A stretch of 64,000 bases of DNA. It comes from Caldilineaceae bacterium (lineage in GTDB: Bacteria > Chloroflexota > Anaerolineae > Caldilineales > Caldilineaceae). Location: positions 1 through 64,000 of the forward strand of contig JAJEDJ010000034.1 of NCBI GenBank assembly GCA_022821545.1, read 5' to 3'. Below, one piece after another: positions 45,018 to 63,751 of this stretch (the stretch's first letter is position 1; each line of letters opens with the position of its first letter). The position numbers were made by a program, and so were the translations under genes. A model generated the notes under the pieces. It ran no database searches. It saw only the letters and a program-made list of their open reading frames with translations, and was not told the DNA's origin.

Positions 45018-45041
45018 GGGAGGCCGCATGTGCGGCCTCCC
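45018..45041 (+). promoter_or_regulatory. Perfect 11-bp intergenic hairpin after binding-protein gene
   Basis: GGGAGGCCGCA (45018-45028) pairs with TGCGGCCTCCC (45031-45041). The formal loop is 2 nt, so a 10-bp stem with a 4-nt loop is realistic. No T-tract. It lies 27 bp after the binding-protein stop. Confidence 0.8.
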
Positions 45042-45059
45042 GACTCTGAGTCACGACAG

Positions 45060-46046
45060 ATGCTGTTATTCATCTTGAGAAGACTGATCGTCATGATACC
45101 TGTGACGATCCTGATCAGTGTCATTGGCTTCATCATCATTCAGGCGCCGCCCGGCGACTTCGTGAGTTCCTACATCGCCGGCTTGGAGGCCCAGGGCGAC
45201 ATCATTGAACCGGAGTTGATCGACTCGCTCAGGGCGCGCTACGGTCTTGGTGAACCAATCTATGTACAGTACTTCAGGTGGGTCTCAAGCTTCGTTGAGG
45301 GCGATCTCGGTTACTCGATGATCTACCGCGAGCCGGTTGTGGACGTCATTGCCCAGCGGCTGCCCTCCAGCTTTACCATCTCGCTCCTCTCTTTGATCCT
45401 GGTATTCGCGATCGGCATCCCCATTGGCATCCTTTCGGCTACAAAACAGTACTCGCTTGCAGACTACTCCTTTACCGTTGTCGGGTTCTTGGGCGTGGCT
45501 ACGCCCAATTTCCTGCTGGCCCTGGTGGGGCTCTGGCTGCTGTTCAAGTGGACCGGCAACGTAGCCATAGGTCTTTACTCCCCGGAGATGCAGAATGCGC
45601 CCTTTGGCCTGGCCAAGTTCCTGGATCTGGTTGGCCACATCTGGTTGCCCGCACTGATCGTAGGTACCGCGGGGACCGCAGAACTGATCAGGACGATGCG
45701 CGCAAACCTTTTGGACGAGCTCCCCAAGCAGTATGTCACTGTCGCCCGCGCGCGCGGCGTCAAGCCGACCAAGCTGCTCTACAAGTATCCCTTGCGCATC
45801 GCGATCAATCCTGTGATCAGCACCGTTGGCTGGCTCTTGCCCGTGCTGGTTGAGGGTGAAGTCCTGGTCTCCCTGGTCTTGGGGCTGCCGACGATTGCCC
45901 CCGTTCTGCTGGACTCGCTCCTGCAGCAGGACATGTTCCTGGCTACGAGTATTATCATGATCCTGGGAATCCTTACGCTCATTGGCACCCTTCTGTCGGA
46001 TATTCTGCTGGCCATCGTCGATCCGCGTATTCGGGGGGCCGTATGA
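45060..46046 (+). CDS. Oligopeptide ABC transporter permease (DppB/OppB type), cassette C
   Basis: A 328-residue permease. The N-terminal MLLFILRRLIVMIPVTILISV is the usual OppB start; FVEGDLGYSMIYREPV and the EAA-like loop ELPKQYVTVARARGVKPTKLLYK are typical. About six helices. ATG 45060 is chosen because the in-frame upstream codons overlap the hairpin region. It overlaps the next gene by 4 bp (ATGA). Confidence 0.93.
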   Translation: MLLFILRRLIVMIPVTILISVIGFIIIQAPPGDFVSSYIAGLEAQGDIIEPELIDSLRARYGLGEPIYVQYFRWVSSFVEGDLGYSMIYREPVVDVIAQRLPSSFTISLLSLILVFAIGIPIGILSATKQYSLADYSFTVVGFLGVATPNFLLALVGLWLLFKWTGNVAIGLYSPEMQNAPFGLAKFLDLVGHIWLPALIVGTAGTAELIRTMRANLLDELPKQYVTVARARGVKPTKLLYKYPLRIAINPVISTVGWLLPVLVEGEVLVSLVLGLPTIAPVLLDSLLQQDMFLATSIIMILGILTLIGTLLSDILLAIVDPRIRGAV

Positions 46047-47107
46047 CCGGGATTCAGCGTGGGGGAACTGCAATGGATGAGCTGGCGCCCCCTGACTCGG
46101 CTATGAACGGCTCGCTGCTGTCCGTGCGCAATCTGCAGACCCATTTCTTCTCGCGCGAAGGAGTGGTCAAGGCTGTCGACGGCGTGAGTTTCGATATCAG
46201 ACCGGGCGAGATTCTCGGAATCGCCGGCGAGAGCGGTTGCGGAAAGAGCGTTACCAGCCAGTCGATCCTCCGCATCCTTCCCAGGAACGGCAAAATCGTG
46301 GGAGGCGAAATCCTCTTCCAAAACGATGACCGCACGATAGATCTGGCGACCGAAGATGCCGATGGCCGCGTACTCCGCGACATTCGGGGCAAAGAGATCG
46401 CCATGATCTTCCAGGAGCCGATGACTGCCTTCAGCCCTGTCCATACCATCGGCGATCAGATCATCGAGACCATCCGCATTCACCAGGAAGTCAGCAAGGA
46501 GGAGGCCCACGACCAGGCCGTCGAAATGCTGCGGCGGGTCGGCATGCCCAATCCGGCGCGCAACATAGACGAGTACACCTTTAATCTGAGCGGCGGTATG
46601 CGCCAGCGGGCGATGGTGGCCCTTTCACTCTCTTGCCGGCCCAAACTGCTGATCGCCGACGAGCCGACTACGGCGGTTGACGTGACGATTCAGGCCCAGA
46701 TGCTGGAGCTGCTTCGGGACATCCAGGCCGATCTGGGAATGGCGATCATAATGATCACCCACGATTTGGGCGTGATTGCCGAGCTGACTGACCGGGTCAT
46801 GATCATGTACCTGGGCAAGGAGGTGGAGCACGGAACGGTGGAGGATGTCTTCCACCGGCCGCAGCATCCCTACACCCGCGGCCTGCTGGCATCGATCCCG
46901 AAGATGGAGCCGGGCAGAGTGGAAATCGAACCGATTGAGGGCGTCGTGCCCAACCCCTACGCCATGCCGTCCGGCTGCAAGTTTCATACCCGCTGCCCTG
47001 ACTTTATCGCCGGCGTCTGTGAGAAACTCGATCCCCCCCTTACCGAAGTTGCCAAAGGTCACGAAGTGAGCTGCTTCCTCTACGGCGGCAAGGAGGGGCT
47101 CGAGTGA
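46043..47107 (+). CDS. Oligopeptide ABC transporter ATP-binding protein (DppD/OppD type)
   Basis: A 354-residue ABC ATPase. Walker [11 protein letters not shown], signature [15 protein letters not shown], Walker [13 protein letters not shown] and switch His (MITHDLGV) are intact. The C-terminal oligopeptide-type extension carries the [10 protein letters not shown] cysteine motif that can bind an Fe-S cluster in this subfamily. It starts by ATGA overlap with the permease and ends with a 4-bp overlap with the second ATPase. Confidence 0.95.
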
Positions 47108-48192
47108 CGGCAACCACACGCGCGATGAACATGAACGAGCGCGCCATCATCTCGGTTCGCAACCTCGTAAAGCACTTCCCGATAGAGGCGGGCTTTCTGC
47201 GCCGTCAGGTTGGCGTTGTCAAGGCGGTTGATGATCTGAACTTCGACCTGAATGAGGGCGAGACGCTGGCCCTGGTCGGGGAGAGCGGTTGCGGCAAGAC
47301 TACCACCAGCCACTGCATCATCCAGGCCCAGCGACCTACCGCGGGCCGTGTCCTCTTCCGAATCGGAGACGCGGAGCCGATGGATCTCACGCAGATGGAG
47401 AAAGGCGAGCTCAAGGAAGCTCGTCGCAACATCCGCATGATCTACCAGGATCCATATTCATCGTTGAACCCGCGCATGACCCTGCTCCAGATTATCGGCG
47501 AGCCGCTGGTTATTCATCGCATGGTCAAGAGTCAGGACGATCTGCAGGAACGGGTGGCGGAGCTGCTGCGTCTCGTGCGCCTCGATCCTTCGACAATGAA
47601 CAGGTATCCGCACGCCTTCAGCGGCGGCCAGCGCCAGCGTATCGCGATTGCACGCGCCCTCTCCCTTTCGCCCAAGGTTGTGATCGCAGATGAAGCGGTG
47701 TCGGCTTTGGACGTGTCGGTCCAGGCGCAGATTCTGAATCTGCTCAAGGAGCTCCAGAACCAGCTCGGCCTCACCTACCTCTTCGTTGCCCACAATCTGG
47801 CCGTCGTCAAGTACGAGGCCGATCGGGTTGCCGTGATGTACGCCGGCAAAATCGTCGAGATCGGCGAGACCGAGGCCCTGTACACCAATCCCAGGCACCC
47901 GTATACCGAGGCGTTGATCTCTGCGGCGCCCAATCCGGATCCCGACACAAAGCACCGGGAGCGGATCGTGCTCTCAGGCGAGGTGGCCGACCCCGGCAAC
48001 CTTCCTGGCGGCTGCGCCTTCCATCCCCGCTGCCGTTATGCGGAGGACCGCTGCAGGCAGGAAATACCTGAACTGATCGAAGTCGGCGGAAACGAGGGGC
48101 AGGCGCACCAGGCTGCCTGCCACTTCGCGGACAGCCTGGACCTAACGGGAATCGCAGGCGCTATTCTGCGCGAGGAAGGTGAAAGCGCATGA
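47104..48192 (+). CDS. Oligopeptide ABC transporter ATP-binding protein (DppF/OppF type)
   Basis: A 362-residue ABC ATPase: Walker [11 protein letters not shown], signature FSGGQRQRIAIARAL, Walker B VVIADEAVSALD (Ala-Val where most members have Pro-Thr/Val-Ser), switch FVAHNLAVV. The C-terminal CAFHPRCRYAEDRC is the oligopeptide-type Cys motif. GTG start at 47104 in a 4-bp overlap. It overlaps the downstream permease by 4 bp. Confidence 0.95.
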   Translation: MTATTRAMNMNERAIISVRNLVKHFPIEAGFLRRQVGVVKAVDDLNFDLNEGETLALVGESGCGKTTTSHCIIQAQRPTAGRVLFRIGDAEPMDLTQMEKGELKEARRNIRMIYQDPYSSLNPRMTLLQIIGEPLVIHRMVKSQDDLQERVAELLRLVRLDPSTMNRYPHAFSGGQRQRIAIARALSLSPKVVIADEAVSALDVSVQAQILNLLKELQNQLGLTYLFVAHNLAVVKYEADRVAVMYAGKIVEIGETEALYTNPRHPYTEALISAAPNPDPDTKHRERIVLSGEVADPGNLPGGCAFHPRCRYAEDRCRQEIPELIEVGGNEGQAHQAACHFADSLDLTGIAGAILREEGESA

Positions 48193-49340
48193 CGCAGGCA
48201 GCAGGCGCGGCGCCCATAGACGGGGTCGTCGCAGGAGACGGGACCGACCAGCGAATTCTGGTCGCTTCACAGTGGCAGTTGATCCGCTGGCGCTTCTTGC
48301 GGCACAAGCTGGCGGTCATTTCCCTGGTTGTACTCGGGTTGTTCTACTTTGTTGCCGTTTTCGCAGAGTTCGTGGCCCCCTACGACCCCTATATCTTCAG
48401 AGAAGAACTGACTCTGGCGCCCCCGCACACGGTTCGCTTCATCGACCCTGAAGGCAACTTTCACCTTCGTCCCTTTATCCATCCCTTCAAGAAAAGCCTG
48501 GACCCGGAAACTTATGCTGCGATCTTCGTCGAAGATGAGACCGTAATGCAGCCGCTGGGCCTCTTCGTGCGCAGCGACCCCTACAAGCTGTGGGGCCTGT
48601 TCGAGAGCGAAATCCATCTGTTTGGCCTGCAGGATCCGGAGGCACGCCTTTCGCTTCTGGGACAGGATACCGTGGGGCGCGATCTCTTTACCCGCATCGT
48701 TTACGGCGCGCGCATCTCGCTCACCATAGGTCTGGTGGGCGTTGCCATGAGCTTTTTCCTGGGCATTCTGATTGGCGGCCTGTCCGGTTACCTCGGCGGG
48801 ACAGTGGATATGGTAATCCAGCGTGTGATCGAATCGTTACGCGCCTTGCCGACCTTGCCGCTGTGGATGGCCCTCAGCATCGCGCTGCCCTCGGACTGGC
48901 CGGTGGTTAGAACCTACTTCGCAATCGTCTTGATCTTGTCGATCGTTGGCTGGACAAGCATCGCGCGCGTCGTTCGTGGACGTTTCTTCGCCCTCCGTGA
49001 GGAGGACTTCGTCGGCGCGGCGGAACTGGACGGAGCCGGCAACCTGCGTATAATCTTTCGCTATCTCCTCCCCTCCTTTATGAGTTACATTATTGCCAGG
49101 CTGACGCTTGCCATTCCGCAGATGATTCTGGGCGAGACTGCCCTCAGTTTTATCGGTCTCGGCCTGCAGGCGCCCGCCATCAGTTGGGGCGTGCTGCTGA
49201 AGGATGCGCAGGCGATTCGCGTTCTTGCCCTGTCGCCCTGGCTTCTGTTGCCGACTGTCTTCATCGTGGTCAGCATCCTCGCATTCAATTTCGTCGGCGA
49301 CGGCCTGCGGGACGCTTCCGACCCCTATTCGCACGTCTAG
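48189..49340 (+). CDS. Oligopeptide ABC transporter permease (DppC/OppC type), cassette C
   Basis: A 383-residue permease, longer than the usual about 300 because of an extracytoplasmic insert of about 80 residues after the first helix (roughly residues 63-150, including a HLRPFIHPFKKSLDP stretch). After the insert come LLGQDTVGRDLFTRIVYGARISL and the EAA-like loop LREEDFVGAAELDGAGNLRIIF. About six helices. The gene order binding protein-B-D-F-C is unlike the common A-B-C-D-F. Confidence 0.93.
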   Translation: MTQAAGAAPIDGVVAGDGTDQRILVASQWQLIRWRFLRHKLAVISLVVLGLFYFVAVFAEFVAPYDPYIFREELTLAPPHTVRFIDPEGNFHLRPFIHPFKKSLDPETYAAIFVEDETVMQPLGLFVRSDPYKLWGLFESEIHLFGLQDPEARLSLLGQDTVGRDLFTRIVYGARISLTIGLVGVAMSFFLGILIGGLSGYLGGTVDMVIQRVIESLRALPTLPLWMALSIALPSDWPVVRTYFAIVLILSIVGWTSIARVVRGRFFALREEDFVGAAELDGAGNLRIIFRYLLPSFMSYIIARLTLAIPQMILGETALSFIGLGLQAPAISWGVLLKDAQAIRVLALSPWLLLPTVFIVVSILAFNFVGDGLRDASDPYSHV

Positions 49341-49413
49341 CCCTCCCTCCAAGTCTCTGGACAGGAGCGTTGCACTTCCGGCGCTTCTGCGCAGCCCAAA
49401 GGAAGAACGGAAA

Positions 49414-50289
49414 ATGAACGCCTTTTTCGACGCCAGCGACCTCAAGCACGATGGACCCGCCCTCCGCCGCCAGGCTGACCGTGACGGTTATCTCTTCATT
49501 CGGAACTTCGTTGATAAGGAGGCCATACTTCAGGCCCGCAAGGACATAGTTTCTGTCTTGCGCGAGGTCGGATGGATCGACGCCGGGGACGACCCCCACG
49601 CCACGGATACCAGCCACCCGCCCCATATATCGGGAGAACCCGAGTTTTCGCCGGTCTACGACATGGTCCAGTGCCTCGAATCCTTTCACACCCTCGCGCA
49701 CGACAGCGCCATCGAGAGCGTCATCGGCCATCTTCTCGGTAGCGACATACTCCTGCAGCCCAGCAATATCGCCCGCTTCATCTTCCCGACCAATCTGGAG
49801 CAGACGACCCCTGCGCACCAGGATTTCGTGCATATTCAGGGGACGCCTGACGTTTGGACCGCCTGGCTGCCCCTGGGCGACTGCCCCCACTCCATGGGTG
49901 GCTTGAGCGTGCTGTCCGGTTCGCACAAGCATGGCATCCTGCCGGTCTCGCGGTCTCTCGGTGCCGGAGGACTGAGGGCGCATTTTGAGAAGATCGGCGG
50001 GGAGTGGGTCTCAAGCCCGTTCGAGAACGGGGACATCCTCTTCTTCCACAGCCACACCGTGCATAAAGGTCTGCCAAACCTGTCCGGGAATCGAATCCGG
50101 CTGTCGGTTGACTACCGCTACCAGAGGGCGTCGGACCCGGTCATGGACAAGGTCCTGACCCCGCACCAGGGCCGGCTCTCGTGGGAAGAGGTCTACAAAG
50201 GGTGGAAGTCGACTGAATTCCAGTATCACTGGCAGAAGTACGAGCTCACTCCTGTCGAAAAGGTACCGTTTCAGCCGGTTGAGGAATGA
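49414..50289 (+). CDS. Phytanoyl-CoA dioxygenase (PhyH) family protein, cassette C
   Basis: A 291-residue Fe(II)/2-oxoglutarate oxygenase. Iron ligands are in TPAHQDFVH (His135, Asp137) and HSHTVHKGL (His217), with Arg227 or Arg229 for 2-oxoglutarate. MGGLSVLSGSHKHG is the core strand pair. ATG 49414 follows GGAAGAACGG. It is 73 bp after the permease stop and closes cassette C, then meets the minus-strand cassette D end-on. Confidence 0.92.
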   Translation: MNAFFDASDLKHDGPALRRQADRDGYLFIRNFVDKEAILQARKDIVSVLREVGWIDAGDDPHATDTSHPPHISGEPEFSPVYDMVQCLESFHTLAHDSAIESVIGHLLGSDILLQPSNIARFIFPTNLEQTTPAHQDFVHIQGTPDVWTAWLPLGDCPHSMGGLSVLSGSHKHGILPVSRSLGAGGLRAHFEKIGGEWVSSPFENGDILFFHSHTVHKGLPNLSGNRIRLSVDYRYQRASDPVMDKVLTPHQGRLSWEEVYKGWKSTEFQYHWQKYELTPVEKVPFQPVEE

Positions 50290-50409
50290 AGCTGGCGCCG
50301 GTTCCGCAACGCGCTTCTCAGCAATAAACGCCGCAGCCGGCAACCCGGCCGCCTTTCTCGCCCAGGCCGCAGGAACTCACTTTCGGGCAGAATTCATCGC
50401 CGGCAGAGC

Positions 50410-51657
50410 TCACCGTCGAGCAGGGTGAAACTCGATCAGCTGGCTTTCCTGAATGGTGCGCATGTTCATCTCATACTGGAGCGGGGAGTCGAACTCGAAC
50501 GCCAGCCGGCCGCGTGACTTGGCCAGATAGGTGGCGAAAAGCTGGCCGGGAACGCAGTAGACCAGCGGAGACAGCGCCTCCGATACCGACCCGGCGACCG
50601 GCAATGTAACGTCGGCTGCCTCAGCAAGATCCCGGTTGCTTTCGTCGCAGACCACCACGCCGCAACCTCCCATCGTCCTGGTCGTGTGCAGCAGCTCCCG
50701 GACCCGGCTGACGCTGCGGCCCTGGGGCGCTATGAACAGGACCTGCGTACCCGGCCCGGTGAGGAAGAACTGCTCGTGCGCCCACTCTTCCAGCTCCTGG
50801 GAGACGCCGTATACGCGCGGAAGTTCATAGGTCTTGGCTGCGTAGAACAGGCTGGTGGCAATGCTGGGGCCGGAGCCGAGAAACGTGTAGCTCTCGATGG
50901 CCTTGACCTGCTCGGCATAGGCTGCCGCCGCCGGCGTGCAGATGCGCACAGTCTCGGCGATCAGCCCGGCTGTGGACCCTAACTCCGCCCGCAGCGCGTC
51001 CGCCTCACCCTCTGTAATGCGGCCCCGCACGACCCCGGTCTGGAATGCGATCAGATATAGGGTGGTCAGGCTGGCCAGGTAGTTGACCAGGCCGAACGAG
51101 CCCCGCCGCGGTTCGTCGTCCTCTTCGCTGGTCGCCAGGTTGCTGGGCATTCCAATCAGCTCTCCTGCGACCCGGACGCTCTGATCGAGGATCGTTTCGG
51201 CCTCTTGGGCCAGCCAGCCCTCCGAATTGCCCGTAATCGCGACCGTGCGCGCGCCGCCCAGCCGCGCATTGACGAGCGCTTCGACCGAGCGGGTCGCCTT
51301 GCCGGAATTCGATATCCCGAATACCAGGGAGCCGGGGGGTACAAACTCGGCGGCATAGCGTCCGAACTCGAGGGCTTCGAGCGCTTCGGTGGGAACGCCG
51401 GCATAACGGGCGAAAGCGTAGCGGGCGGCCAGGCCCGCAAAGTAGGAGTCGCCGCATCCGGTGATGTAAATGTGGGAACTCTCCGCGAGCAGGGAGGGGT
51501 CCATGGCTTCCAGCTGCGGCTGGACCGAACTGATCACCGCGGGGATGGCCGGGCCTTGGTTGCTGATTTCATTCAGCATGTCTTCGATGGTGACCGGTAT
51601 CGGTTCGCCGAATTCGGCCTGCCGGATAGGGCGGGCGACTGTCTCATCTCTTTCCAT
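50410..51657 (-). CDS. Double-SIS-domain sugar isomerase-like protein (GlmS/AgaS-like, no glutaminase domain)
   Basis: A 415-residue protein with two sugar-isomerase (SIS) domains: the first with IYITGCGDSYFAG and VFGISNSGKATRSVEAL (about 60-200), the second with YTFLGSGPSIATSLFYAAK and QELEEWAHEQFFLTGPGTQVLFIAP (about 255-380). It resembles the isomerase half of glucosamine-6-phosphate synthase but lacks the N-terminal Cys amidotransferase domain, so it may be an amino-sugar phosphate isomerase/deaminase or lyase. ATG 51657 is chosen; the frame is open further upstream without conservation. Last gene of cassette D. Confidence 0.88.
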   Translation of the reverse strand: MERDETVARPIRQAEFGEPIPVTIEDMLNEISNQGPAIPAVISSVQPQLEAMDPSLLAESSHIYITGCGDSYFAGLAARYAFARYAGVPTEALEALEFGRYAAEFVPPGSLVFGISNSGKATRSVEALVNARLGGARTVAITGNSEGWLAQEAETILDQSVRVAGELIGMPSNLATSEEDDEPRRGSFGLVNYLASLTTLYLIAFQTGVVRGRITEGEADALRAELGSTAGLIAETVRICTPAAAAYAEQVKAIESYTFLGSGPSIATSLFYAAKTYELPRVYGVSQELEEWAHEQFFLTGPGTQVLFIAPQGRSVSRVRELLHTTRTMGGCGVVVCDESNRDLAEAADVTLPVAGSVSEALSPLVYCVPGQLFATYLAKSRGRLAFEFDSPLQYEMNMRTIQESQLIEFHPARR

Positions 51658-51682
51658 TTCTGCCTCTTGCCAAGTGAAGTGG

Positions 51683-51710
51683 GGTCGCTGGTGGCTGGTC
51701 GCCGGTGGTA
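51683..51710. repeat. Imperfect 14-bp tandem duplication
   Basis: GGTCGCTGGTGGCT is followed by GGTCGCCGGTGGTA (11 of 14 identical), in the short gap between the Rieske and SIS genes. Confidence 0.5.
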
Positions 51711-51737
51711 GTCTGCTACGCGTGCTGCGAGGCCGCT

Positions 51738-52130
51738 CTACATGACAATGAATACCTGGCCGTCTTCGACCGAAACCTCGTAGGTGCGTAGTCTGAGGTC
51801 GTAGCCAAAGGCCTTCCCGCTGCGAATGTCGTACTCCATCCCATGCCCCGGGCAGACCAGAACTTCGCCTTCGTGGGCCCACTCGGTCTCCCAGCACGTA
51901 TCCGCGTTACAGATCACCGTGCCCTGCAGCCGGCCCCTGCTCAGCGGGGCGGACTGATGCGGGCAGCGGCCAAAAAGTGCGAAAAAATCTCCTTCGACGT
52001 TGAACACCGCGATCTGTACGCTGCCAACGCTGACCTCCATGCGCGTGCCGGCAGGAAAGTCGCTGAGCCTGGCAACGGGGATCTTGCGTCGCGGACGCCT
52101 GCTGCCGGAGCGTGGCTTTTCTGAACTCAT
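51738..52130 (-). CDS. Rieske [2Fe-2S] ferredoxin-like protein
   Basis: A 130-residue Rieske domain. Cluster ligands: GRCPHQ (Cys56, His58) and VCPGHGMEYD (Cys93, His96). The first 17 residues are basic. There is no attached oxygenase domain, so it is an electron carrier or a small subunit. It starts by ATGA overlap with the upstream amidohydrolase gene, so the two are translationally coupled. By family knowledge it could carry electrons to an oxygenase; PhyH enzymes do not normally need one, so its partner is unclear. Confidence 0.9.
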   Translation of the reverse strand: MSSEKPRSGSRRPRRKIPVARLSDFPAGTRMEVSVGSVQIAVFNVEGDFFALFGRCPHQSAPLSRGRLQGTVICNADTCWETEWAHEGEVLVCPGHGMEYDIRSGKAFGYDLRLRTYEVSVEDGQVFIVM

Positions 52131-53302
52131 TTTCGAGCCGTCAGCCCAAAGAAGCGCAGCGCGTTCTCGCCAAGAATCTTGCGCCGAAGCGCATCGTCCA
52201 TCTCATAGCGCATAAAACCCGCGATCAGGTCCCTTTCCAGGTGCGGCCAGTCGGAGGCCCACATCGTCGTGTCCCGGCCCTGGTACAGATCGATCAGCTT
52301 GGCCAGGTCGCCGCGGCGTGGCAGAGCCTCCAGCTCGTGTGTGCCGATGTACCAGTCCCGGATGTACTCGCTTGGCTTCTTCTCCAGCGCCGGCAACTCG
52401 GTGCGGTAGCGCAGGTATGCGGCGTCAAGCCGGTACATGATGAAAGGCATCCACGTGAGTCCGGCCTCCAGAATCGCGAATTTCAGGTTGGGGAAGCGGA
52501 CGGGGATGCCGGCGCATACGACGGACATAATCTGTAGCATTGACGTGAACGGGAAGCCCATGCTGTTGACCTGCATGAGCGTATGAAAGTGGGCCACACG
52601 CAGAGGATAGTTGTCGTGGATCAGGGCCTCTATGCCATGGAAGCTGATGGGAAGGTCGTGCCTGGCCGCGGCCTCGAAGATCGGCCAGTACTTCTCGTCG
52701 CCGATTGGCGGGTTGACGCCCGCGTCGGGAATGCAGACGCTGACGACGTCGGGGTGGCCTGCATGGCGGTCGATCTCCAGCGCCGCCCGTGCCGGCTGCT
52801 GCGGCGCCACGACGATGGCTATCTTGACGCCCTCCAGATTCTTGTAGGCGTCAACCATGTACTGGTTATAGGCTGTGGCCAGGGCGGCCGCCCATTCCGG
52901 TTCGGGCAGATAGCCGATGGGAAGGAGTTCGCTGGGAAAGAGAATGCTGTAGTCGATGATCCCCTTCTCCATTCTCGCGAGAAGGTCCTCCTTGGTGGCC
53001 AGCTTGGCGCGCGGCGGCTTGTCGTAGGAGGAGCCGAGCCAGGCGATGTGGGCTATCATGTTGCGCAGCGAGTTGCCCGGCTCTCCCTTGAAGTCGGCCT
53101 GAAGCACTGTCTCCATTCGCTTGCGGAAGTGGCCCTCCATATAGTCGAGCATGAACATGAGCGTGTCATCGACATGCACGTCAACGTCGACTATCGTGAG
53201 GCCTGAGAGCTCTTCGCCGTACTGGTCGAGATCTTCGTCCTGGACGGGATTTAAGGAGGGCTCGACTCTTTGCACTGTGACCGGCTGACCTTCATTCGCC
53301 AA
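52127..53302 (-). CDS. Amidohydrolase family 2 (ACMSD-like) metal-dependent hydrolase/decarboxylase
   Basis: A 391-residue TIM-barrel amidohydrolase. The first-strand metal motif VDVDVHVDD has Asp41-Val-His43; HDLPISFHGIEA supplies mid-barrel His; and MWASDWPHLERD has the late Asp351. This pattern fits the ACMSD and related decarboxylase group. Start is TTG 53302 behind CAGGAG. The first 35 residues are an acidic extension. Role in cassette D unknown: hydrolysis or decarboxylation of an imported acid is plausible. Confidence 0.88.
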   Translation of the reverse strand: MANEGQPVTVQRVEPSLNPVQDEDLDQYGEELSGLTIVDVDVHVDDTLMFMLDYMEGHFRKRMETVLQADFKGEPGNSLRNMIAHIAWLGSSYDKPPRAKLATKEDLLARMEKGIIDYSILFPSELLPIGYLPEPEWAAALATAYNQYMVDAYKNLEGVKIAIVVAPQQPARAALEIDRHAGHPDVVSVCIPDAGVNPPIGDEKYWPIFEAAARHDLPISFHGIEALIHDNYPLRVAHFHTLMQVNSMGFPFTSMLQIMSVVCAGIPVRFPNLKFAILEAGLTWMPFIMYRLDAAYLRYRTELPALEKKPSEYIRDWYIGTHELEALPRRGDLAKLIDLYQGRDTTMWASDWPHLERDLIAGFMRYEMDDALRRKILGENALRFFGLTARK

Positions 53303-53418
53303 CTGAGAATCTCCTGACGAGCCTGTTGTGGGAGGCGGCCTGAACGCTTGAGTGTGAACGCCTGCGCCTGTCGTTCAGGCTCTGTCGAGTTTAACAGACC
53401 GTAGCGCGGGCGCACAAA

Positions 53419-54321
53419 TCAACTGGCTGAATGGCCGTTGCGGCGCCCTCTGGCCGCGCGCGGGTTCATCGCGTCGATCAGGCCGTCACCGACCAGGTTG
53501 ACGCTCAGGACAAGCAGGGTCAACACGAGACCGGGAAATCCGGGGTACCAGGGGGCGACAGTGATGTAACCGCGTCCGTCGCTGATGATTGAGCCCAGGC
53601 TCGGGGTCGGCGGCTGAATGCCGAAGCCAAAGAAGCTCAGCCCTGCTTCGTACATGATGGCGCCCGGTATGCCCATCGAAAAAGCGACGATGATCGGCCC
53701 CATGCAGTTGGGAAGGACGTGTCGCAGCAGAATGCGCCAGTTGCCCGCGCCTATGCTGCGCGCCGCCTCCACGTATGTCTGCTCTCTGATGGCCAGGACC
53801 TGTCCCCGCACCAGGCGCGCCACGTCCGGCCAGGCCACCAGCGCCAGCGCCAGGCACACCGTCAGCAGTCCGGGCCCGAGCACGGCCGTCACTGTCATCG
53901 CCAGCAGAATGACGGGGAAGGCGAGCATGATGTCGGTGATGCGCATGATGATACTGTCAACGATCGTCGGGAAATAGCCTGAAATCAGCCCGAGCAAGGT
54001 GCCCGCCGCCATTGACAGGCCCCGTACCAGGAGGCCGACTATCAGAGAGGTGCGCAGGCCGAAGACAACCCGGGCAAAGATGTCCCTCCCCAGCTGGTCG
54101 GTGCCGAACAGGTTGCGGGCGTTAGGAGCAAAAGGCGGCGTGATCGTCTCGCCGTCCCGCTCGCGCCGCATCTCGATTTGCGTGGGGTCGCTGACGATAA
54201 AGGGCGCCAGGGCTGCCAGCAGCACGAAGACGAGAATGACCCCTGCGCCGACCAGCGGCAGACGGGCCTGCAGCAAGCGCCGCCAGTCAAACGTAGCGGA
54301 TTCGCGGATTGATAAACGCAT
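53419..54321 (-). CDS. Peptide/nickel-type ABC transporter permease (DppC type), cassette D
   Basis: A 300-residue permease with FGTDQLGRDIFARVVFGLRTSL, the EAA-like loop IREQTYVEAARSIGAGNWRI and FGIQPPTPSLGSII. Six helices. It overlaps the upstream permease gene by 35 bp, indicating tight coupling. No ATPase gene belongs to this operon. Confidence 0.93.
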   Translation of the reverse strand: MRLSIRESATFDWRRLLQARLPLVGAGVILVFVLLAALAPFIVSDPTQIEMRRERDGETITPPFAPNARNLFGTDQLGRDIFARVVFGLRTSLIVGLLVRGLSMAAGTLLGLISGYFPTIVDSIIMRITDIMLAFPVILLAMTVTAVLGPGLLTVCLALALVAWPDVARLVRGQVLAIREQTYVEAARSIGAGNWRILLRHVLPNCMGPIIVAFSMGIPGAIMYEAGLSFFGFGIQPPTPSLGSIISDGRGYITVAPWYPGFPGLVLTLLVLSVNLVGDGLIDAMNPRAARGRRNGHSAS

Positions 54322-55213
54322 ACAGGAGGTCCACTGCCAGGTTGACCAGGGATACGGAGACGGCCAGTACGATCACGGAGGCCTGCAGGGCCGGAAGATC
54401 GCGAAAAACCAGGGCGTCATAGGCGTACTTGCCAATGCCGGGCCACGCGAAAACGACCTCGATTATCGGGATGCCCCCAAGCAAACGTACGAAGTCGGTG
54501 CCGATGGTGGTTACGATTGGAATCAGCGCATTGGGGAGAACATGCCGCCGGATGACCAGTACGCCCCTCAACCCCTTGGCGCGTGCCGTGCGAATGTAGT
54601 CCTCCCCCAGGACCTCGATCAGGGCGGCGCGCGTGATTCTGGCCAGGAGACCCAGCGAAGGCAATGCCAGGGTAACGGCGGGCAGCACGACAAACTGGTC
54701 GAAGCCGGAGCCGTATCCGGAGGGAGGTAGGAGCCGCAGAAAAACCGCGAAAACGATCTGCAGCATCAGGGCCAGCCAGAAGAGCGGAAAGGAAAGATTC
54801 AATGCCGCTATCGTCATGATCAGACGGTCGGCCCAGCCGTTGCGGTGCGTGGCCGCGACGATACCCAGCCAGATGCCCAGGAGCGCGCTCGTAACTTCGG
54901 CGGCCAGCGCCAGCTGCACCGTCTTGGGAAAAACTTCCAGGAGATCTCCGAGGATCGGGCGGCGCGACTGGTAGGATCGTCCGAACTCGCCTCTCGCCAG
55001 GTCCCACAGATTGTCCAGGTACTGGACCCAGAGGGGGCGGTCGAATCCCATCTCCTCCCGGATCGTTTCAACCACGTCGGGGTTGGCGAAAGGGCCGGCC
55101 ATCATGCGGGCGGGGTCTCCCGGCAGAATGTTCAGCAGGGCAAACAGAACGGTGACCAGCCCGATGAGAATGGGGATGAACTGTAGGAGGCGTCGAACCG
55201 TATAACCGAGCAT
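54287..55213 (-). CDS. Peptide/nickel-type ABC transporter permease (DppB type), cassette D
   Basis: A 308-residue permease starting MLGYTVRRLLQFIPILIGLVTV, with FGRSYQSRRPI and the EAA-like loop VLGEDYIRTARAKGLRGVLV. It forms the pore with the DppC-type partner. It follows the PhyH gene (104-bp gap), an unusual place, since the binding protein normally directly precedes the permease. Confidence 0.93.
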   Translation of the reverse strand: MLGYTVRRLLQFIPILIGLVTVLFALLNILPGDPARMMAGPFANPDVVETIREEMGFDRPLWVQYLDNLWDLARGEFGRSYQSRRPILGDLLEVFPKTVQLALAAEVTSALLGIWLGIVAATHRNGWADRLIMTIAALNLSFPLFWLALMLQIVFAVFLRLLPPSGYGSGFDQFVVLPAVTLALPSLGLLARITRAALIEVLGEDYIRTARAKGLRGVLVIRRHVLPNALIPIVTTIGTDFVRLLGGIPIIEVVFAWPGIGKYAYDALVFRDLPALQASVIVLAVSVSLVNLAVDLLYAFINPRIRYV

Positions 55214-55317
55214 GGGGGGCAGCGGCGGCCTTAGTGAAGGTTTCTCGCACGCCTGGCGCGGACCCGGGAAACAGGTACGCGATTACCGGTGTTCCGAAAA
55301 CAGCGGCGGACGTCTTT

Positions 55318-56445
55318 TCAGAGGCCGAGGTCTTTCAAATTGTAATTCCTGAGAATGCTTGCCCGTGTCCCCTCGCTCCAGCGGTTGGCCTCTTCCTCGC
55401 CGGCCAGGGGCTGGTAAACGTAGCGATCTTCGTGAGGAAAGCGCTGGTGGCGTGCGTCGATTGCGAGCGCGATCACCCGTGAGCGTTCGCGGACCCGTTC
55501 CTCGTCGTAGACGACCTCCTGGCCTCCGTGAACTGTTCGAACATTGAGGACGCAACTGCGGCGGTGAAAGCCGAAATTGATCGTGATTCTCCTGTCCGGC
55601 GACGTATTGGCGAAAGAGGCGTGCAGGGCCTGCCGGTTGGACATGACGACGTCGCCCGGCTCGCAGACCATCGGCACCGCTCCGGGTAGCCGGTCCGAGC
55701 CGTTCTCTTCTACCAATCCCTTGATGTCGGATTTGCCCTCTTTGTGCGAGCCGGGAAGCAGCCAGACGCCGTTCTCGGCAGTACTCCCGTACAGCTGCGC
55801 CATAAAGTTGAAACCGTGTGAGCCCTCGTCCAGGTCGGGGCTGTCCCAATGGGTGGTTCCGTCGTGGTGCCAGGCGACCGACGGGCCAAGACCGGCGCGC
55901 TTCACGATGACCGATTCGGTGAATGGCGTAAAGTCCGGGCCGTTGATGCTTGCTGCGATCGCCAGCAGTTGCGGATGACCGTAGAGCCTGAGGCAAGAAT
56001 CCATGATCTGGAGGGGGCTGCCGATACTGTTTATGACATAGTCGGGGGCATCGGCAGGCGGCGCCGGCTCGCTCATCTTGGCTGGGTGGCGTCCGCTGAC
56101 CAGGTCCGTGCCGCCGTAGGGATCGCTCAGCGGCTTGGCGAAGCGGAACGTAGGCCGGGCCAGGTCGCTGCCAAGTGCAGGGCGGCCCTGCGCGTCTACC
56201 ACGGCGTCCTTCGTGTACGGCGCCCGCTCGAAGGCCTGCTCCATGTCCGCGCGCAGGTCTTCGAGCTCCTCTGCGCTCAGCGCGCCCTCCAGAACGTAGA
56301 AACCGCAGCGCCAGTAAGCGTCCAGGATCTCCTGGTCGAGCGTGCCGTCGTCGTTGAACCGGATCGGCCCTCGGTTTCCCAATTCAAAGGCTTTGCGCCC
56401 TCCTTCGCGGACGTAGCTCTCCAGTGTCCCCGTATTCCCGTCCAT
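55318..56445 (-). CDS. Phytanoyl-CoA dioxygenase (PhyH) family protein, cassette D (second)
   Basis: A 375-residue Fe(II)/2-oxoglutarate oxygenase, the largest PhyH in the window. Iron ligands: AWHHDGTTHW (His193, Asp195) and RQALHASF (His275), with Arg285 or Arg286 for 2-oxoglutarate. The core has NGVWLLPGSHKEG. ATG 56445 is fixed by AAGGAGG just upstream; a 16-bp hairpin sits immediately 5' of that site. It lies between the binding-protein and permease genes. Confidence 0.93.
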   Translation of the reverse strand: MDGNTGTLESYVREGGRKAFELGNRGPIRFNDDGTLDQEILDAYWRCGFYVLEGALSAEELEDLRADMEQAFERAPYTKDAVVDAQGRPALGSDLARPTFRFAKPLSDPYGGTDLVSGRHPAKMSEPAPPADAPDYVINSIGSPLQIMDSCLRLYGHPQLLAIAASINGPDFTPFTESVIVKRAGLGPSVAWHHDGTTHWDSPDLDEGSHGFNFMAQLYGSTAENGVWLLPGSHKEGKSDIKGLVEENGSDRLPGAVPMVCEPGDVVMSNRQALHASFANTSPDRRITINFGFHRRSCVLNVRTVHGGQEVVYDEERVRERSRVIALAIDARHQRFPHEDRYVYQPLAGEEEANRWSEGTRASILRNYNLKDLGL

Positions 56446-56465
56446 TCCTGCCTCCTTGTGACCCG

Positions 56466-56508
56466 GTGCGCCGCACGCGTACCTGGTTCCGATACGCGTG
56501 CGGCGCAC
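56466..56508 (-). promoter_or_regulatory. Perfect 16-bp intergenic hairpin after binding-protein gene
   Basis: GTGCGCCGCACGCGTA (56466-56481) pairs completely with TACGCGTGCGGCGCAC (56493-56508) over an 11-nt loop. It lies 111 bp after the binding-protein stop and just upstream of the AAGGAGG site of the PhyH gene (a gap of about 7-10 bp). No T-tract in the direction of transcription. Confidence 0.85.
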
Positions 56509-56619
56509 TGGTTTGCTGTTCTGGCGTCTCGCTCAAGACCATTCATTTGAGCTGCGCCTGGCGAACTCTGCAATGAGAAGGGACGCCGGACGCGTGGCGC
56601 CGGTTGTCTGCTTGCCCGC

Positions 56620-58278
56620 CTACTCGGTTACCCAGACCCGGTGAAACATGTGCGTATCCATCGGCGACGGAACATAGTTCTGCACGCGAGGCGTCGATAC
56701 GTCGACATAGATATTGTGGGTCAGCGGAATGTAAGGCAGGTCTTCGGCGAACTGGGCGTCCACCTCCTGGTAGAGACGGGCGCGTTCGGCGTCGTCGATA
56801 GTGGCGCGGGCGGTGGCGATATTGGCGTCCACGTCGGCGTTTTCGTAGCGCGCGTAGTTTCCGCCGCCGCCGAGATTGTCGGAGTGCATGAGCGGAAAGT
56901 AGAAGCCGTCAGGGTCGGCGTAGTCGGTCACCCGGTACATCCAGGCGAGGTCGTAGCTGCCCGACTCCAGCGCTTCCATGTAGGGCCCGAACTCCGTCGG
57001 TTTAATCTCGATGTTGATGCCGATCTCTTTCAGGTTGGCCTGGTAGATTTCCAGCAGCTTGATCAGGTTGCCCCAGGGCGGCAGAATGACGTCGAATGTC
57101 CCGGGTACACCGTCTGCAAATCCGGCCTCGGCCATTAGCGCCTTTGCCGCATCGAGGTTGGTTGGGTAGTTCAGGACCGCGGCCTCATCGTATCCAAGCA
57201 GCCCGGGAGGAAGCAGGCCCTGGGCGACGTTCGCGCGTCCTTGCAGGCTGGCGATGATGGCATCCAGGTCGAGAGCGTAGCGGACGGCCTGCCGCAATTT
57301 GGGATTGGTTCCGAACGGTTCGTTGTCAAGGTTGACGGCTATGAAGTCAGTGTGGAAAGTCTCTGCCCAGCCCAGCTTTTCCTTGTAGACCGGGTCGGTG
57401 CTGAACCTATCCCAATGCGCCGGTGGAACCCAGGCCATGTCCAGTCGCCCGGCGTCCAGTTCTACGATGCGCGTGTTTTCGTCGCCAATGAAGCGGAACA
57501 TGACCGCATCCAGGTAGGGGCGTCCGTTCCAGTACTCTTCAAAGGCGTTGAGTGTTACATCCTGGTTGAGATTCCACTCGCCCAAAGAGAACGGGCCGGC
57601 GGCGACGACATTCTGGCCGAAGTCTTCACCCCACTTTTCGACCTCTTCCTGCGGAACGACGGCCAGGTTGATGCTGGCCAGCATTGCCTTGAACGGAGCC
57701 AGCGGTTCGGCCAGCTCGATTTCCAGCGTCCCGGCGTCAACCACTCTGATGCCGCTGACTTCGTCGGCGGAACCGTCCTGAAACGCCTCTGCGCCGACGA
57801 TGATCGAGAGCATCCAGGCCTTGGGGCTCCTGGTTTCCGGATTCAGAACGCGTTCAAAGCTGTACTTGAAGTCGTCCGCCGTGATTTCGCGGCCGTTGTG
57901 GAACTTCGCGCCCGCGCGCAGGTTGAATGTCCAGGTCTTGCCGTCCTCAGACACTTCAAAGCTCTCGGCGATGGCCGGTTCGATCTCGCGGCCATCCGGC
58001 GAGAGGCGGAAGAGACCTTCAAGCAGATTGGGAGCGATAACCCCTTGGTCCCAACCGGCGATGGCGGCAGGATCAAAGCTCTTCGGATCGGATGAGACAA
58101 AGCCGGCCACGACGCCGCCCATTCTCGGCCCTTCAGCCTCCCCCGATTCAGCTGTCATCGAGTCGTCGGCCGGGGCGGACTCGGTCGAAGCCGCAGGCGC
58201 GGGAACACAGGCGATCAAAAGCGACGCCAGTAGAACAAGACAAAGTGCCAGCTTCGTCACATGCTTCATTGACTTCAT
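56620..58278 (-). CDS. Peptide-type ABC transporter substrate-binding lipoprotein, cassette D
   Basis: A 552-residue SBP family 5 protein. The signal peptide MKHVTKLALCLVLLASLLIAC (after MKS) ends in a lipobox, followed by an Ala/Ser/Asp-rich tether. The SBP5 core appears as TWTFNLRAGAKFHNGREITADDFKYSFERVL and LRQAVRYALDLDAII. ATG 58278 is chosen because GAGGAG lies 8 bp upstream; longer frames run into the 18-19-bp repeat. The ligand is not deducible (peptide, opine or oligosaccharide). Confidence 0.93.
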   Translation of the reverse strand: MKSMKHVTKLALCLVLLASLLIACVPAPAASTESAPADDSMTAESGEAEGPRMGGVVAGFVSSDPKSFDPAAIAGWDQGVIAPNLLEGLFRLSPDGREIEPAIAESFEVSEDGKTWTFNLRAGAKFHNGREITADDFKYSFERVLNPETRSPKAWMLSIIVGAEAFQDGSADEVSGIRVVDAGTLEIELAEPLAPFKAMLASINLAVVPQEEVEKWGEDFGQNVVAAGPFSLGEWNLNQDVTLNAFEEYWNGRPYLDAVMFRFIGDENTRIVELDAGRLDMAWVPPAHWDRFSTDPVYKEKLGWAETFHTDFIAVNLDNEPFGTNPKLRQAVRYALDLDAIIASLQGRANVAQGLLPPGLLGYDEAAVLNYPTNLDAAKALMAEAGFADGVPGTFDVILPPWGNLIKLLEIYQANLKEIGINIEIKPTEFGPYMEALESGSYDLAWMYRVTDYADPDGFYFPLMHSDNLGGGGNYARYENADVDANIATARATIDDAERARLYQEVDAQFAEDLPYIPLTHNIYVDVSTPRVQNYVPSPMDTHMFHRVWVTE

Positions 58279-58293
58279 TGCTTTCTCCTCAAT

Positions 58294-58349
58294 GTGTGTG
58301 GATTCGGTCAGAGTGGTGGATTCGGACACAGTGTGTGGATTCGGACAAC
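58294..58349. repeat. 18-19-bp tandem repeat, three copies
   Basis: Units at 58294, 58313 and 58331 share GTGGATTCGG (e.g. GTGTGTGGATTCGGTCAGA). Lengths are 19, 18 and 19 bp. The array lies just upstream of the cassette D binding-protein gene. Confidence 0.87.
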
Positions 58350-58398
58350 CGTCCCGTCCCTTATGCTGCGCCAAAGTTATCAAATCGACATTTCGATG

Positions 58399-59457
58399 TC
58401 AAGCGTCCAAATCCTGGCGTCCGCGGCGCCCCCGCAGAAGCTGCAACCTCGAATGTGCCTGGTCCGCGCCAACATTAAGGGCGTGAAGGACGCCGAAATC
58501 CTCAATAATGAAAGATGCCGAGACGGCCCCGTAAAGGGCGGCCTGACCGGGGTCTTGGGTCTGGGCCATCCCGACCAGAAAGCCGCCGCAGAAAGCGTCG
58601 CCGGCCCCGGTAGGATCGACGGCCTCGGTCGGGTACGTCGGGATCTGAATCCAGTCCGCCTCCCCTCGCAGAAGCAGCCGCAAACCGCGGGCGCCCATCT
58701 TGACGCCGACTCCGTTCGGACCCAACGCCAGCAGGCGCCGCGCTGCCTCGAAAACGTGTCCCCCTTCCCCCCCGCCGTCCTCTTCGGCAGAGAAAACGGC
58801 GTCGGCATGGATAGTCAGTTCCTCAATGCTGGGCAACAGGTAGTCGATGTTCCTGAGAAGGGCGAAGTCTACCTCGCCCTCCTTGTCCCAGTCCCACCAG
58901 GGCCAGTCGAAGCTGATGACGACCTGGTCCCCTCGCAGCTCCTTGAGAAAGCTGGCGTTGGCGCGGCTGCAGGGTAGCGGTCCCGGGGCCAGATGGACGT
59001 GTGATGATCTGCCGGCTATGTCGGCAAATTGCGTGAGGTCAGGGCAGAAACTGGGCCAGATGCGGCGGTGGAGCGGGCTGCCCGTGTCGGTGTACTCGCT
59101 TTCGAGGTCGATGATTTCGCCGGCATGGGCAGGCAGGAGGTCGCGTGCCTCTTCGATGCGATCGGTGCGGCTGCCGTCGGCAAAATAGAATGCGCGCGAG
59201 CGCAGCAGGTGTGGATCTGGAATTTCGGTTATGCCCGACACGTCGATGCCTGCGCCGGCCAGCTGGTCCAGCCACGTTGTGGGATAGTCGGAACCGACCA
59301 CGCTGACCAGGCTGACGTGGACGCCCCACAGGCGCATCCCGGCGGCCGCATAGACCGCGTTGCCGCCAAGCTGACGCGGCGAGATCTGCCCGTCGGGGGT
59401 GACCACGTCGTCCAGTGTGCAGTTGCCCACCGCAAGAAAAGAGCCGGCTGCGCTCAC
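58399..59457 (-). CDS. PfkB family carbohydrate/nucleoside kinase
   Basis: A 352-residue ribokinase-fold protein. ISPRQLGGNAVYAAAGMRLWG is the substrate-side Gly motif (usually GGAxxN), and DPTGAGDAFCGGFL is the PfkB signature 2 with the catalytic Asp. In between, two stretches of about 30 residues are insertions relative to typical ribokinase (total usually about 310). GTG 59457 is the assigned start; the ribosome binding site is weak. It would phosphorylate an imported sugar or nucleoside in cassette D. Confidence 0.9.
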   Translation of the reverse strand: MSAAGSFLAVGNCTLDDVVTPDGQISPRQLGGNAVYAAAGMRLWGVHVSLVSVVGSDYPTTWLDQLAGAGIDVSGITEIPDPHLLRSRAFYFADGSRTDRIEEARDLLPAHAGEIIDLESEYTDTGSPLHRRIWPSFCPDLTQFADIAGRSSHVHLAPGPLPCSRANASFLKELRGDQVVISFDWPWWDWDKEGEVDFALLRNIDYLLPSIEELTIHADAVFSAEEDGGGEGGHVFEAARRLLALGPNGVGVKMGARGLRLLLRGEADWIQIPTYPTEAVDPTGAGDAFCGGFLVGMAQTQDPGQAALYGAVSASFIIEDFGVLHALNVGADQAHSRLQLLRGRRGRQDLDA

Positions 59458-59559
59458 TGGCTCACATTCCCGCGGCGGTTTTCTATCGTCATGAGTCGCG
59501 TCTGCTTCCGGTCCATGTCATGCTGTCTGCCGGGATCCGAATTGCAGTCCGTCGTCGCG

Positions 59560-60357
59560 TCAGAACCGCATACGCAGCATGGGATGGCTGAAGTTGACTG
59601 GAATCGTCTCGCCTGTGCGCGCCGACTTTGTCCCCGGCGTCATGAAATGGATGGCCAGGGCCCGGCGCTGGCGATCGGTCGTGTTCGGCGCAGTGCGGTG
59701 CAGGGTCTGGCAGTGGTGGAGCGTTATGCCGCCGGCCGGCAGGTCGCCCACGACTGCCTCGTTGTCGTCGACCAGTTTGCCCATGTCCAGCAGGACGTCG
59801 CTGCCTTGAGCCTGGTCGTGCATCATGGGACGCAGATGCGAGCCGGGAATGAACTGCATGGCGCCGTTGTCCAATTCCACGTCGTCGAGAGTGAGCCAGC
59901 AGCTGACCAGGTTCGGAGGCAGGCACCTCCAATAGGCGTTGTCCTGGTGCCAGAAGATCGGTCCCCCGTGGTGCGGCGGTTTGTACAGGCCCTGGTTGTG
60001 GAACAGCTGGATGTTTGGTCCGATTACGTCTTCGATGATGTCCAGAATGCCCTGATGGTAGATGAGCTTGTGGAACTGGACGTTGTGCTCGGAAATCTGC
60101 ATGAATTGGAGCATCTCCTGCTCCCCTTCTTCATCGTGATCATGATCATCTTCGAAGACGGCCAGGTTCCGCACCGGCCGGTCTCCGCTGCGCCCGAGAG
60201 CGAACTCTTCGTCATACTCGCCCCGCATTTCCTCGATGAGATCGTCTTCGAGTACTTTGCCTACGACCAGGAAGCCGTTTTCCCAGAAACTGGCAACCTG
60301 CGCTTGGGTCAGGACATTGAATCCGCTCTCCTGTTCGGCTGTTTCTGTCGACTGCAT
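59560..60357 (-). CDS. Phytanoyl-CoA dioxygenase (PhyH) family protein, cassette D (first)
   Basis: A 265-residue Fe(II)/2-oxoglutarate oxygenase. Iron ligands: FWHQDNAYW (His137, Asp139) and CQTLHRTAP (His220), with Arg231 for 2-oxoglutarate; LDNGAMQFIPGSHLRP is the core. A His/Asp/Glu-rich loop (VFEDDHDHDEEGEQE, about 67-81) is unusual and may be flexible or metal-binding. AAGGAG lies 8-9 bp before ATG 60357. It is the promoter-proximal gene of cassette D. Confidence 0.92.
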   Translation of the reverse strand: MQSTETAEQESGFNVLTQAQVASFWENGFLVVGKVLEDDLIEEMRGEYDEEFALGRSGDRPVRNLAVFEDDHDHDEEGEQEMLQFMQISEHNVQFHKLIYHQGILDIIEDVIGPNIQLFHNQGLYKPPHHGGPIFWHQDNAYWRCLPPNLVSCWLTLDDVELDNGAMQFIPGSHLRPMMHDQAQGSDVLLDMGKLVDDNEAVVGDLPAGGITLHHCQTLHRTAPNTTDRQRRALAIHFMTPGTKSARTGETIPVNFSHPMLRMRF

Positions 60358-63404: not shown

Positions 63405-63751
63405 TCTAAACCTCCATGTCCCCTGACAAACGGTGAACTGCGTCGACTCTGAACGGATTCCGTGGACATCTTGGAAACCTGGTATCGCCGGCACACTGAC
63501 TTCCGTTTCGACTGACCCAGGGAAAATCTAGCACAGACGGCCTCGCCATTCAAGTGGAGTTTCTGGGGTGCGGGTGGGACCTCTTCCGCGTGTCAGATTT
63601 AACGGGTTGCCCTTCCAACGGTGTGGATATCCTGGCGTCAGGTTTCCGTGAATCGGCCCCTCTGTGTTACTGTAGGAGTCAGATCGGGTGGACGAATCTT
63701 CGGCAATGATTTCATGAAGTTACTTTCATAATTGAAAGTGCCAACCGCCAG
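63405..63751. other. Divergent 347-bp intergenic region
   Basis: It separates the DMFase-like gene (-) from the metal ATPase gene (+). No ORF is supported. The visible structure is an 18-bp palindrome at 63722-63739 close to the ATPase start, plus TTCATGAA at 63711-63718. Confidence 0.6.
63722..63739. promoter_or_regulatory. 18-bp palindrome, likely operator of the metal ATPase gene
   Basis: ACTTTCA-TAAT-TGAAAGT is perfectly symmetric and ends 12 bp before the ATG at 63752. The 7-bp arms with a 4-bp centre fit a dimeric regulator. Which family (ArsR, CsoR, MerR type) cannot be told from the site. Confidence 0.6.

Follow-up and report, generated by a model that had tools for sequence, protein, structure and literature searches.

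The window analyzed here comprises bases 1 to 64000 of contig C16 (JAJEDJ010000034.1) from a Caldilineaceae bacterium whose genome (GCA_022821545.1, denoted G000) amounts to 4.87 Mb in 58 contigs. It contains an eight-gene block on the minus strand, termed cassette D, which spans positions 60357 down to 50410 and includes the solute-binding protein (SBP) and the two permeases of an ATP-binding cassette (ABC) importer. Its genes are as follows.

59560..60357, minus strand: PhyH-family dioxygenase, the first (5') gene, by domain match
58399..59457, minus strand: PfkB-family kinase, by domain match
56620..58383, minus strand: SBP_bac_5 solute-binding lipoprotein (Pfam PF00496, 306.6 bits)
55318..56508, minus strand: second PhyH-family dioxygenase, by domain match
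54287..55213, minus strand: DppB-type permease, with BPD_transp_1 (PF00528) and BPD_transp_1_N (PF19300)
53419..54321, minus strand: DppC-type permease, with BPD_transp_1 (PF00528) and OppC_N (PF12911)
52127..53302, minus strand: Amidohydrolase_2 protein, by domain match
50410..51897, minus strand: SIS-domain, GlmS-like isomerase/deglycase, the last gene, scoring under every equivalog cutoff

The true start of the SBP is probably an internal Met ahead of a lipobox-like LIAC. The family-5 SBP and the DppB and DppC permeases are those of an Opp/Dpp-class (OPN) importer; the two linked oligo_HPY ATPases of such an importer are missing from cassette D and from its counterparts in the genus stretches that were read. 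Cassette D is therefore the permease and SBP portion of an OPN importer, incomplete by itself. A domain scan of its genes detected no ABC ATPase, in agreement with an earlier note on this DNA that had described a binding protein with DppB and DppC and no DppD or DppF, and the only oligo_HPY (DppD/F) domains within the window were the two of the neighboring cassette C. Cassette D is under purifying selection and is not decaying. Its reading frames are intact, and its DppB was found in 17/17 genus genomes searched, its own included, at 84 to 100% identity. Against the one-contig genus genomes G004, G011, and G015, the ratio of nonsynonymous to synonymous substitution rates (dN/dS) was 0.05 to 0.09 for DppB, DppC, and the SBP (0.06 to 0.07 for DppC); all dN/dS values given here are approximate, because dS was 0.5 to 1.4.

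The importer inventory of the genome was based on a map of 40 stretches around oligo_HPY and family-5 SBP (SBP5) matches plus the window, with permease-ATPase links assigned by eye. There were 57 SBP5 matches and 46 oligo_HPY subunits, the latter forming 23 DppD/DppF pairs; the presence of further ATPase pairs, which the earlier note had proposed to check, was thus confirmed, and one of them stands alone. The DppB-type permeases numbered 50, of which 21 had a linked ATPase pair, 1 belonged to a split system, and 28 had no ATPases. These 28, none of them closer than 9.7 kb to a contig end, comprised 24 of the class of cassette D (D class, with cassette D among them) and 4 of the class of cassette C (C class). 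Most of the 23 other D-class orphan permease pairs were distant from any complete cassette. A similar imbalance extended to the relatives, with DppB counts exceeding half the ATPase-subunit counts in 58/61 genomes (its own and 60 relatives) and an excess of 14 to 33 across the 17 genus genomes; these are lower bounds on the DppB side, since the DppB family model was incomplete (44/50 in its own genome). The one-contig genomes G004, G011, and G015 contained 46, 42, and 52 ATPase subunits versus 39, 43, and 56 DppB, respectively.

Only one of the 23 ATPase pairs, located outside the window at C32:130159-132260 of the same genome, had neither permeases nor a family-5 SBP nearby. This standalone DppD-DppF pair, here called the hub, lies beside the argininosuccinate lyase gene (argH), its other neighbors being an amidase and an HTH_25 protein. 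In both subunits the Walker A, signature, Walker B, and H-loop motifs are all intact. We take them to be GESGSGKS, FSGGMRQR, LLIADEP, and THD in DppD and GESGCGKS, FSGGQRQR, FIVCDEP, and AHD in DppF. Pfam searches (E ≤ 0.001) matched ABC_tran and oligo_HPY in the hub proteins and gave no TOBE match. For the hub DppD, dN/dS was 0.031, 0.021, and 0.029 against G004, G011, and G015, respectively, compared with 0.077, 0.055, and 0.053 for the dedicated DppD of C10; the DppD of cassette C gave 0.060 and 0.062 in two of the three comparison genomes, those having the cassette.

The hub DppD was matched in 56/61 genomes at E ≤ 1e-120. It was present in 17/17 genus genomes with 94 to 100% identity (partial in G003), and the identity was 77 to 84% within the family and about 63 to 77% within the class. 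Of the five genomes without such a match, one (G033) carries a fragment with 85% identity; in the other four (G024, G028, G039, and G040), no match exceeds 55%. In 5/5 genus genomes read around the hub, the pair lies between argH and an amidase gene with no permease nearby, which is the arrangement of ATPase genes without cognate permeases nearby that is expected of a shared ATPase. The hub surroundings were also read in 16 further family members. In 9 of these the hub directly adjoins SBP5-DppB-DppC with no additional ATPase pair, in 3 the neighboring cassette has its own ATPases, in 2 the cassette is on the opposite strand, and in 1 (G017) there is none; in the remaining one the contig breaks off past an SBP and part of a DppB. 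Since permeases still adjoin the hub in most of the family's other genera and not in the window's genus, the simplest history would be that the genus lost the permeases of the hub and kept the ATPases. At 6 of the 21 loci annotated (out of 80 named), a pair resembling the hub has no permease for about 7 to 8 kb to either side. One of them, L239 (Caldilineaceae bacterium jk18xAbins.63), agrees with the hub locus in gene order, and its DppD is identical to that of the hub; the pairs at L243, L247, L248, L251, and L258 show 61 to 68% identity and are likely orthologous to the hub.

Two relatives within the class show the imbalance in its plainest form. In G053 (97% complete), the only two oligo_HPY subunits genome-wide are the hub pair, and there are three SBP-DppB-DppC sets. 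In G047 (96% complete), there are 20 permease pairs and four oligo_HPY subunits (two pairs); in the stretches read, 17 of the permease pairs had no DppD/F. Outside the oligo_HPY count, a few ABC proteins with weak scores occur close to one set each in G053 and G047 and close to the G047 hub; they reached 112 to 173 bits, compared with about 480 to 510 for true DppD/F. For these two genomes, sharing of ATPases is the only ready explanation. Several same-class importers without ATPases, the other arrangement expected around a shared ATPase, are thus present both here (17 in G047) and in the window's genome (24 D-class orphan pairs).

The class assignments were derived from trees and from the sequences at the coupling interface; the long-branched ATPases C52:54k and C52:55k were excluded from the profiles, and C52:55k also from the DppF tree. 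The hub DppD groups with the DppD of C10 (SH-aLRT support 97), apart from that of cassette C, and the hub DppF groups with the DppFs of C10, C42, and C52, all of which are linked to D-class permeases. The cassette C ATPases fall in a separate clade together with C10:255k, and the permeases of cassettes D and C likewise fall in separate clades. The sequence following the Q-loop in DppD depends on class, being FQDPMTSLNP in the hub and a different ten-residue sequence, or similar ones, in most C-class proteins, in a pattern comparison that did not capture some rows. Hub-linked DppBs of relatives in the family and class are spread over at least four supported D-class clades, with none in the C-class clade, so that the D-class permeases adjoining the hub have differed widely over time. 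In the EAA loop, the cassette D DppB averaged 61% identity with 21 loops of hub-linked DppBs and 38% with 16 of the C class, while for that of cassette C the values were 27% and 51%, respectively. These clade and loop statements cover hub-linked DppBs other than five that neighbor the hub in cassettes with their own ATPases (G020, G021, G023, G043, and G049 downstream), and the tree omits the opposite-strand DppBs of G030 and G035.

Cassette D lacks ATPases, is conserved and constrained, has many ATPase-less sisters, and persists where cassette C is absent; the hub is a single standalone pair with intact catalytic motifs, and in the trees it groups with ATPases from D-class systems. We infer that cassette D is a type I ABC importer of the Opp/Dpp class without ATPases of its own, and that the hub DppD-DppF heterodimer would dock on the EAA loops of its DppB and DppC and energize it in trans, docking in turn on about 23 other same-class permease pairs without linked ATPases. 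That cassette D is a working importer energized in this way by the shared hub, as would be its sisters, we regard as likely.

The nearest candidate donor of ATPases is cassette C, on the plus strand.

42930..44990, plus strand: SBP_bac_5, by domain match
45030..46046, plus strand: DppB, a C-class permease, by domain match, tree, and EAA loop
46043..47107, plus strand: DppD, a C-class ATPase and the donor proposed earlier, by domain match and tree
47104..48192, plus strand: DppF, a C-class ATPase, by domain match and trees
48189..49340, plus strand: DppC, by domain match
49204..50289, plus strand: PhyH, the last gene, by domain match

As the earlier note had described, cassette C encodes both ATPases and converges with cassette D, the last genes being 120 bp apart (50290-50409). 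The distance relevant for sharing, from the cassette D DppB to the closest cassette C ATPase gene, is 6.1 kb, and no other ATPases lie closer to cassette D. The convergent arrangement recurs in 12/16 sister genomes; in G012, cassette C is immediately upstream of the cassette D DppB, and in G003 its position could not be judged. The proposal that cassette D borrows the ATPases of cassette C nevertheless appears very unlikely, being largely refuted by genomes that have D and no C. In G004 (one contig) and G010, cassette D is intact with no cassette C near it, and no ortholog of the cassette C DppD was found anywhere in either genome (best match, 59%), whereas the same search recovered orthologs with 89 to 92% identity in four other genus genomes; G004 and G010 retain the hub DppD at 94% and 96% identity. 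Compared by sequence, the EAA loops of the two permease pairs carry different coupling-loop signatures, which speaks against the pairing that the earlier note had suggested, and the Q-loop signatures and clades of the ATPases also differ. Moreover, the 23 other D-class orphans, mostly distant from complete cassettes, show that adjacency to cassette C is not required. Of the suggestion that the two cassettes share one ATPase pair, sharing as such is thus very likely correct, but the choice of partner failed, and cassette C as a neighbor is probably a false lead. Nor was the accompanying idea sustained that genes lost from cassette D are compensated by cassette C, since D has no linked DppD/F throughout the genus neighborhoods read and 3/4 of the closest outside homologs examined are likewise without them.

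Other sources of energy have to be weighed against the hub. Four D-class pairs with their own permeases (C2:5-8k, C10:205-207k, C42:55-57k, and C52:46-50k) could serve cassette D, alone or redundantly with the hub; their ATPases are in or near the hub clade, the DppD of C10 likewise occurs across the genus, and G047 has two ATPase pairs, not one, for its 20 permease pairs. Each of these pairs, however, has cognate permeases, and only the hub lost its own yet was retained; it also has the lowest DppD dN/dS and is the sole pair in G053, so that service by a permease-linked pair seems unlikely. Further observations likewise weigh against the hub as the motor of cassette D. The hub DppF, with dN/dS of 0.063, 0.055, and 0.062, is no tighter than dedicated DppFs (0.037 to 0.069). 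The cassette D DppB lies outside any hub-linked clade, its nearest ATPase-linked neighbor in its own genome being C2:3k with weak support, and EAA-loop similarity tracks phylogeny and is not independent of the trees. In the family members G024 and G028, whose assemblies are fragmented (87% and 89% complete), DppBs outnumber ATPase pairs and no hub was found. It is scarcely credible that cassette D and its sisters are nonfunctional remnants decaying after ATPase loss: the lack of linked ATPases would fit, but not the intact frames, the dN/dS of 0.05 to 0.09, or the retention in 17/17 genus genomes under purifying selection. The probability that ATPase genes are missing through assembly gaps is negligible, because, although the genome is in 58 contigs, no ATPase-less DppB lies closer than 9.7 kb to a contig end, and the DppB excess recurs in G004, G011, and G015, each a single contig.

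Outside the genus, five homologs of the cassette D DppB were above threshold, with 44 to 49% identity. The four examined belong to SBP-DppB-DppC cassettes, and for three of these the stretch read contains no DppD/F. The fourth, in G049 (L344:7236-8411), is a D-like cassette with a DppF and no DppD; this DppF is 72% identical to a hub DppF and falls in the hub-side clade, and half of its ATPase pair may be supplied in trans. Because this cassette has DppF only, it suggests that DppF could be locally replaceable. A broader scheme, doubtful at present, would be a hub-and-spoke network in this Chloroflexota class, in which one vertically inherited, nearly frozen DppD plus DppF serves as universal motor for dozens of Opp/Dpp importers and, in the window's genus, has parted from the permeases that once belonged to it, with DppD invariant and DppF locally replaceable to give mixed heterodimers.

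In six sister species (G002, G016, G014, G003, G011, and G006), a two-ABC-protein insertion lies between the cassette D SBP and the second PhyH gene. As candidates for DppD/F these ABC ATPases were rejected; in L328, the one scanned, they belong to an energy-coupling factor (ECF) transporter (L328:13734-17483, in G002), with a CbiQ-type T component, two ATPases, and an S component of weak ThiW/riboflavin similarity. The window's genome has no ECF insertion in cassette D. Upstream of the cassette, window positions 61140-63494 encode a protein of 784 residues that combines LamG-like and DMFA2_C (dimethylformamidase beta-like) domains and adjoins cassette D in several sister species too.

Elsewhere in the genome, another complete C-class cassette converges with an ATPase-less D-class cassette (C32:9107-20550, L140). 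The four C-class orphan permease pairs are C10:251k, C24:85k, C29:240k, and C45:171k, three of which have a C-class ATPase gene no more than 7 kb away, and sharing with a neighbor may suit these better than cassette D. On the minus strand of C24:67007-95224 (L150 and L151), a C-class importer is apparently split: DppD and DppC lie at the opposite end from DppB, SBP, and DppF, with plus-strand systems, complete and incomplete, between the halves. Two fusions were seen as single open frames, DppD-DppF of 729 residues (C19:110820-113009, L145) and DppC-DppD of 681 residues (C52:46495-48540, L136).

Shared ATPases are known from other importers. In CUT1 sugar importers, a separately encoded ATPase serves several same-class importers without an ATPase gene, as with MsmX of Bacillus subtilis and MsmK of Streptococcus pneumoniae, and passages of Leisico et al. 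2020 state that multi-importer ATPases had been reported exclusively for CUT1 importers (PMC7658222). The likeness to cassette D is that a separately encoded ATPase would again serve several same-class ATPase-less operons. The CUT1 motor, however, consists of a single kind of ATPase, present twice and bearing a TOBE-type regulatory domain (PMC11466899), whereas the motor proposed here is a DppD-DppF pair with oligo_HPY domains and of the Opp/Dpp class; with no TOBE match, the hub is not of the MsmX type. FhuC of Staphylococcus aureus is described, in an excerpt of an eLife 2023 paper (PMC10147376), as one ATPase energizing the Hts, Sir, and Isd permeases. Those operons lack an ATPase, as cassette D does, but they encode type II importers, and FhuC lies within its own permease operon, fhuCBG. 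The B. subtilis systems AppDFBCA, DppDBCE-YkfD, and OppDFBCA share the SBP and permease subunit families of cassette D but, in a listing within PMC11466899, each has its own two ATPases. Many ABC transporters are on record for sponge Chloroflexi, with no mention of ATPase sharing in the passages concerned (PMC6306507), and passages listing Brucella OPN systems are silent on sharing (PMC2821768). Full-text searches of open-license PubMed Central papers listed no report of a shared Opp/Dpp ATPase pair, subscription papers being outside that scope. The real finding is the genome-wide pattern with one standalone, strongly conserved DppDF pair, which would be a variation on the known shared-ATPase arrangement. 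Sharing, if true, would explain a cheap expansion of importer repertoires, would make all those uptake routes hinge on one locus, and would correct annotation that labels such operons incomplete, while providing a natural data set for the residues that let one ATPase pair fit many permeases. ATPase sharing, described for importers of sugars and siderophores, would also reach the Opp/Dpp class with its two ATPases, and with about two dozen permease pairs per motor in this genome its scale would surpass that of the examples in the cited passages.

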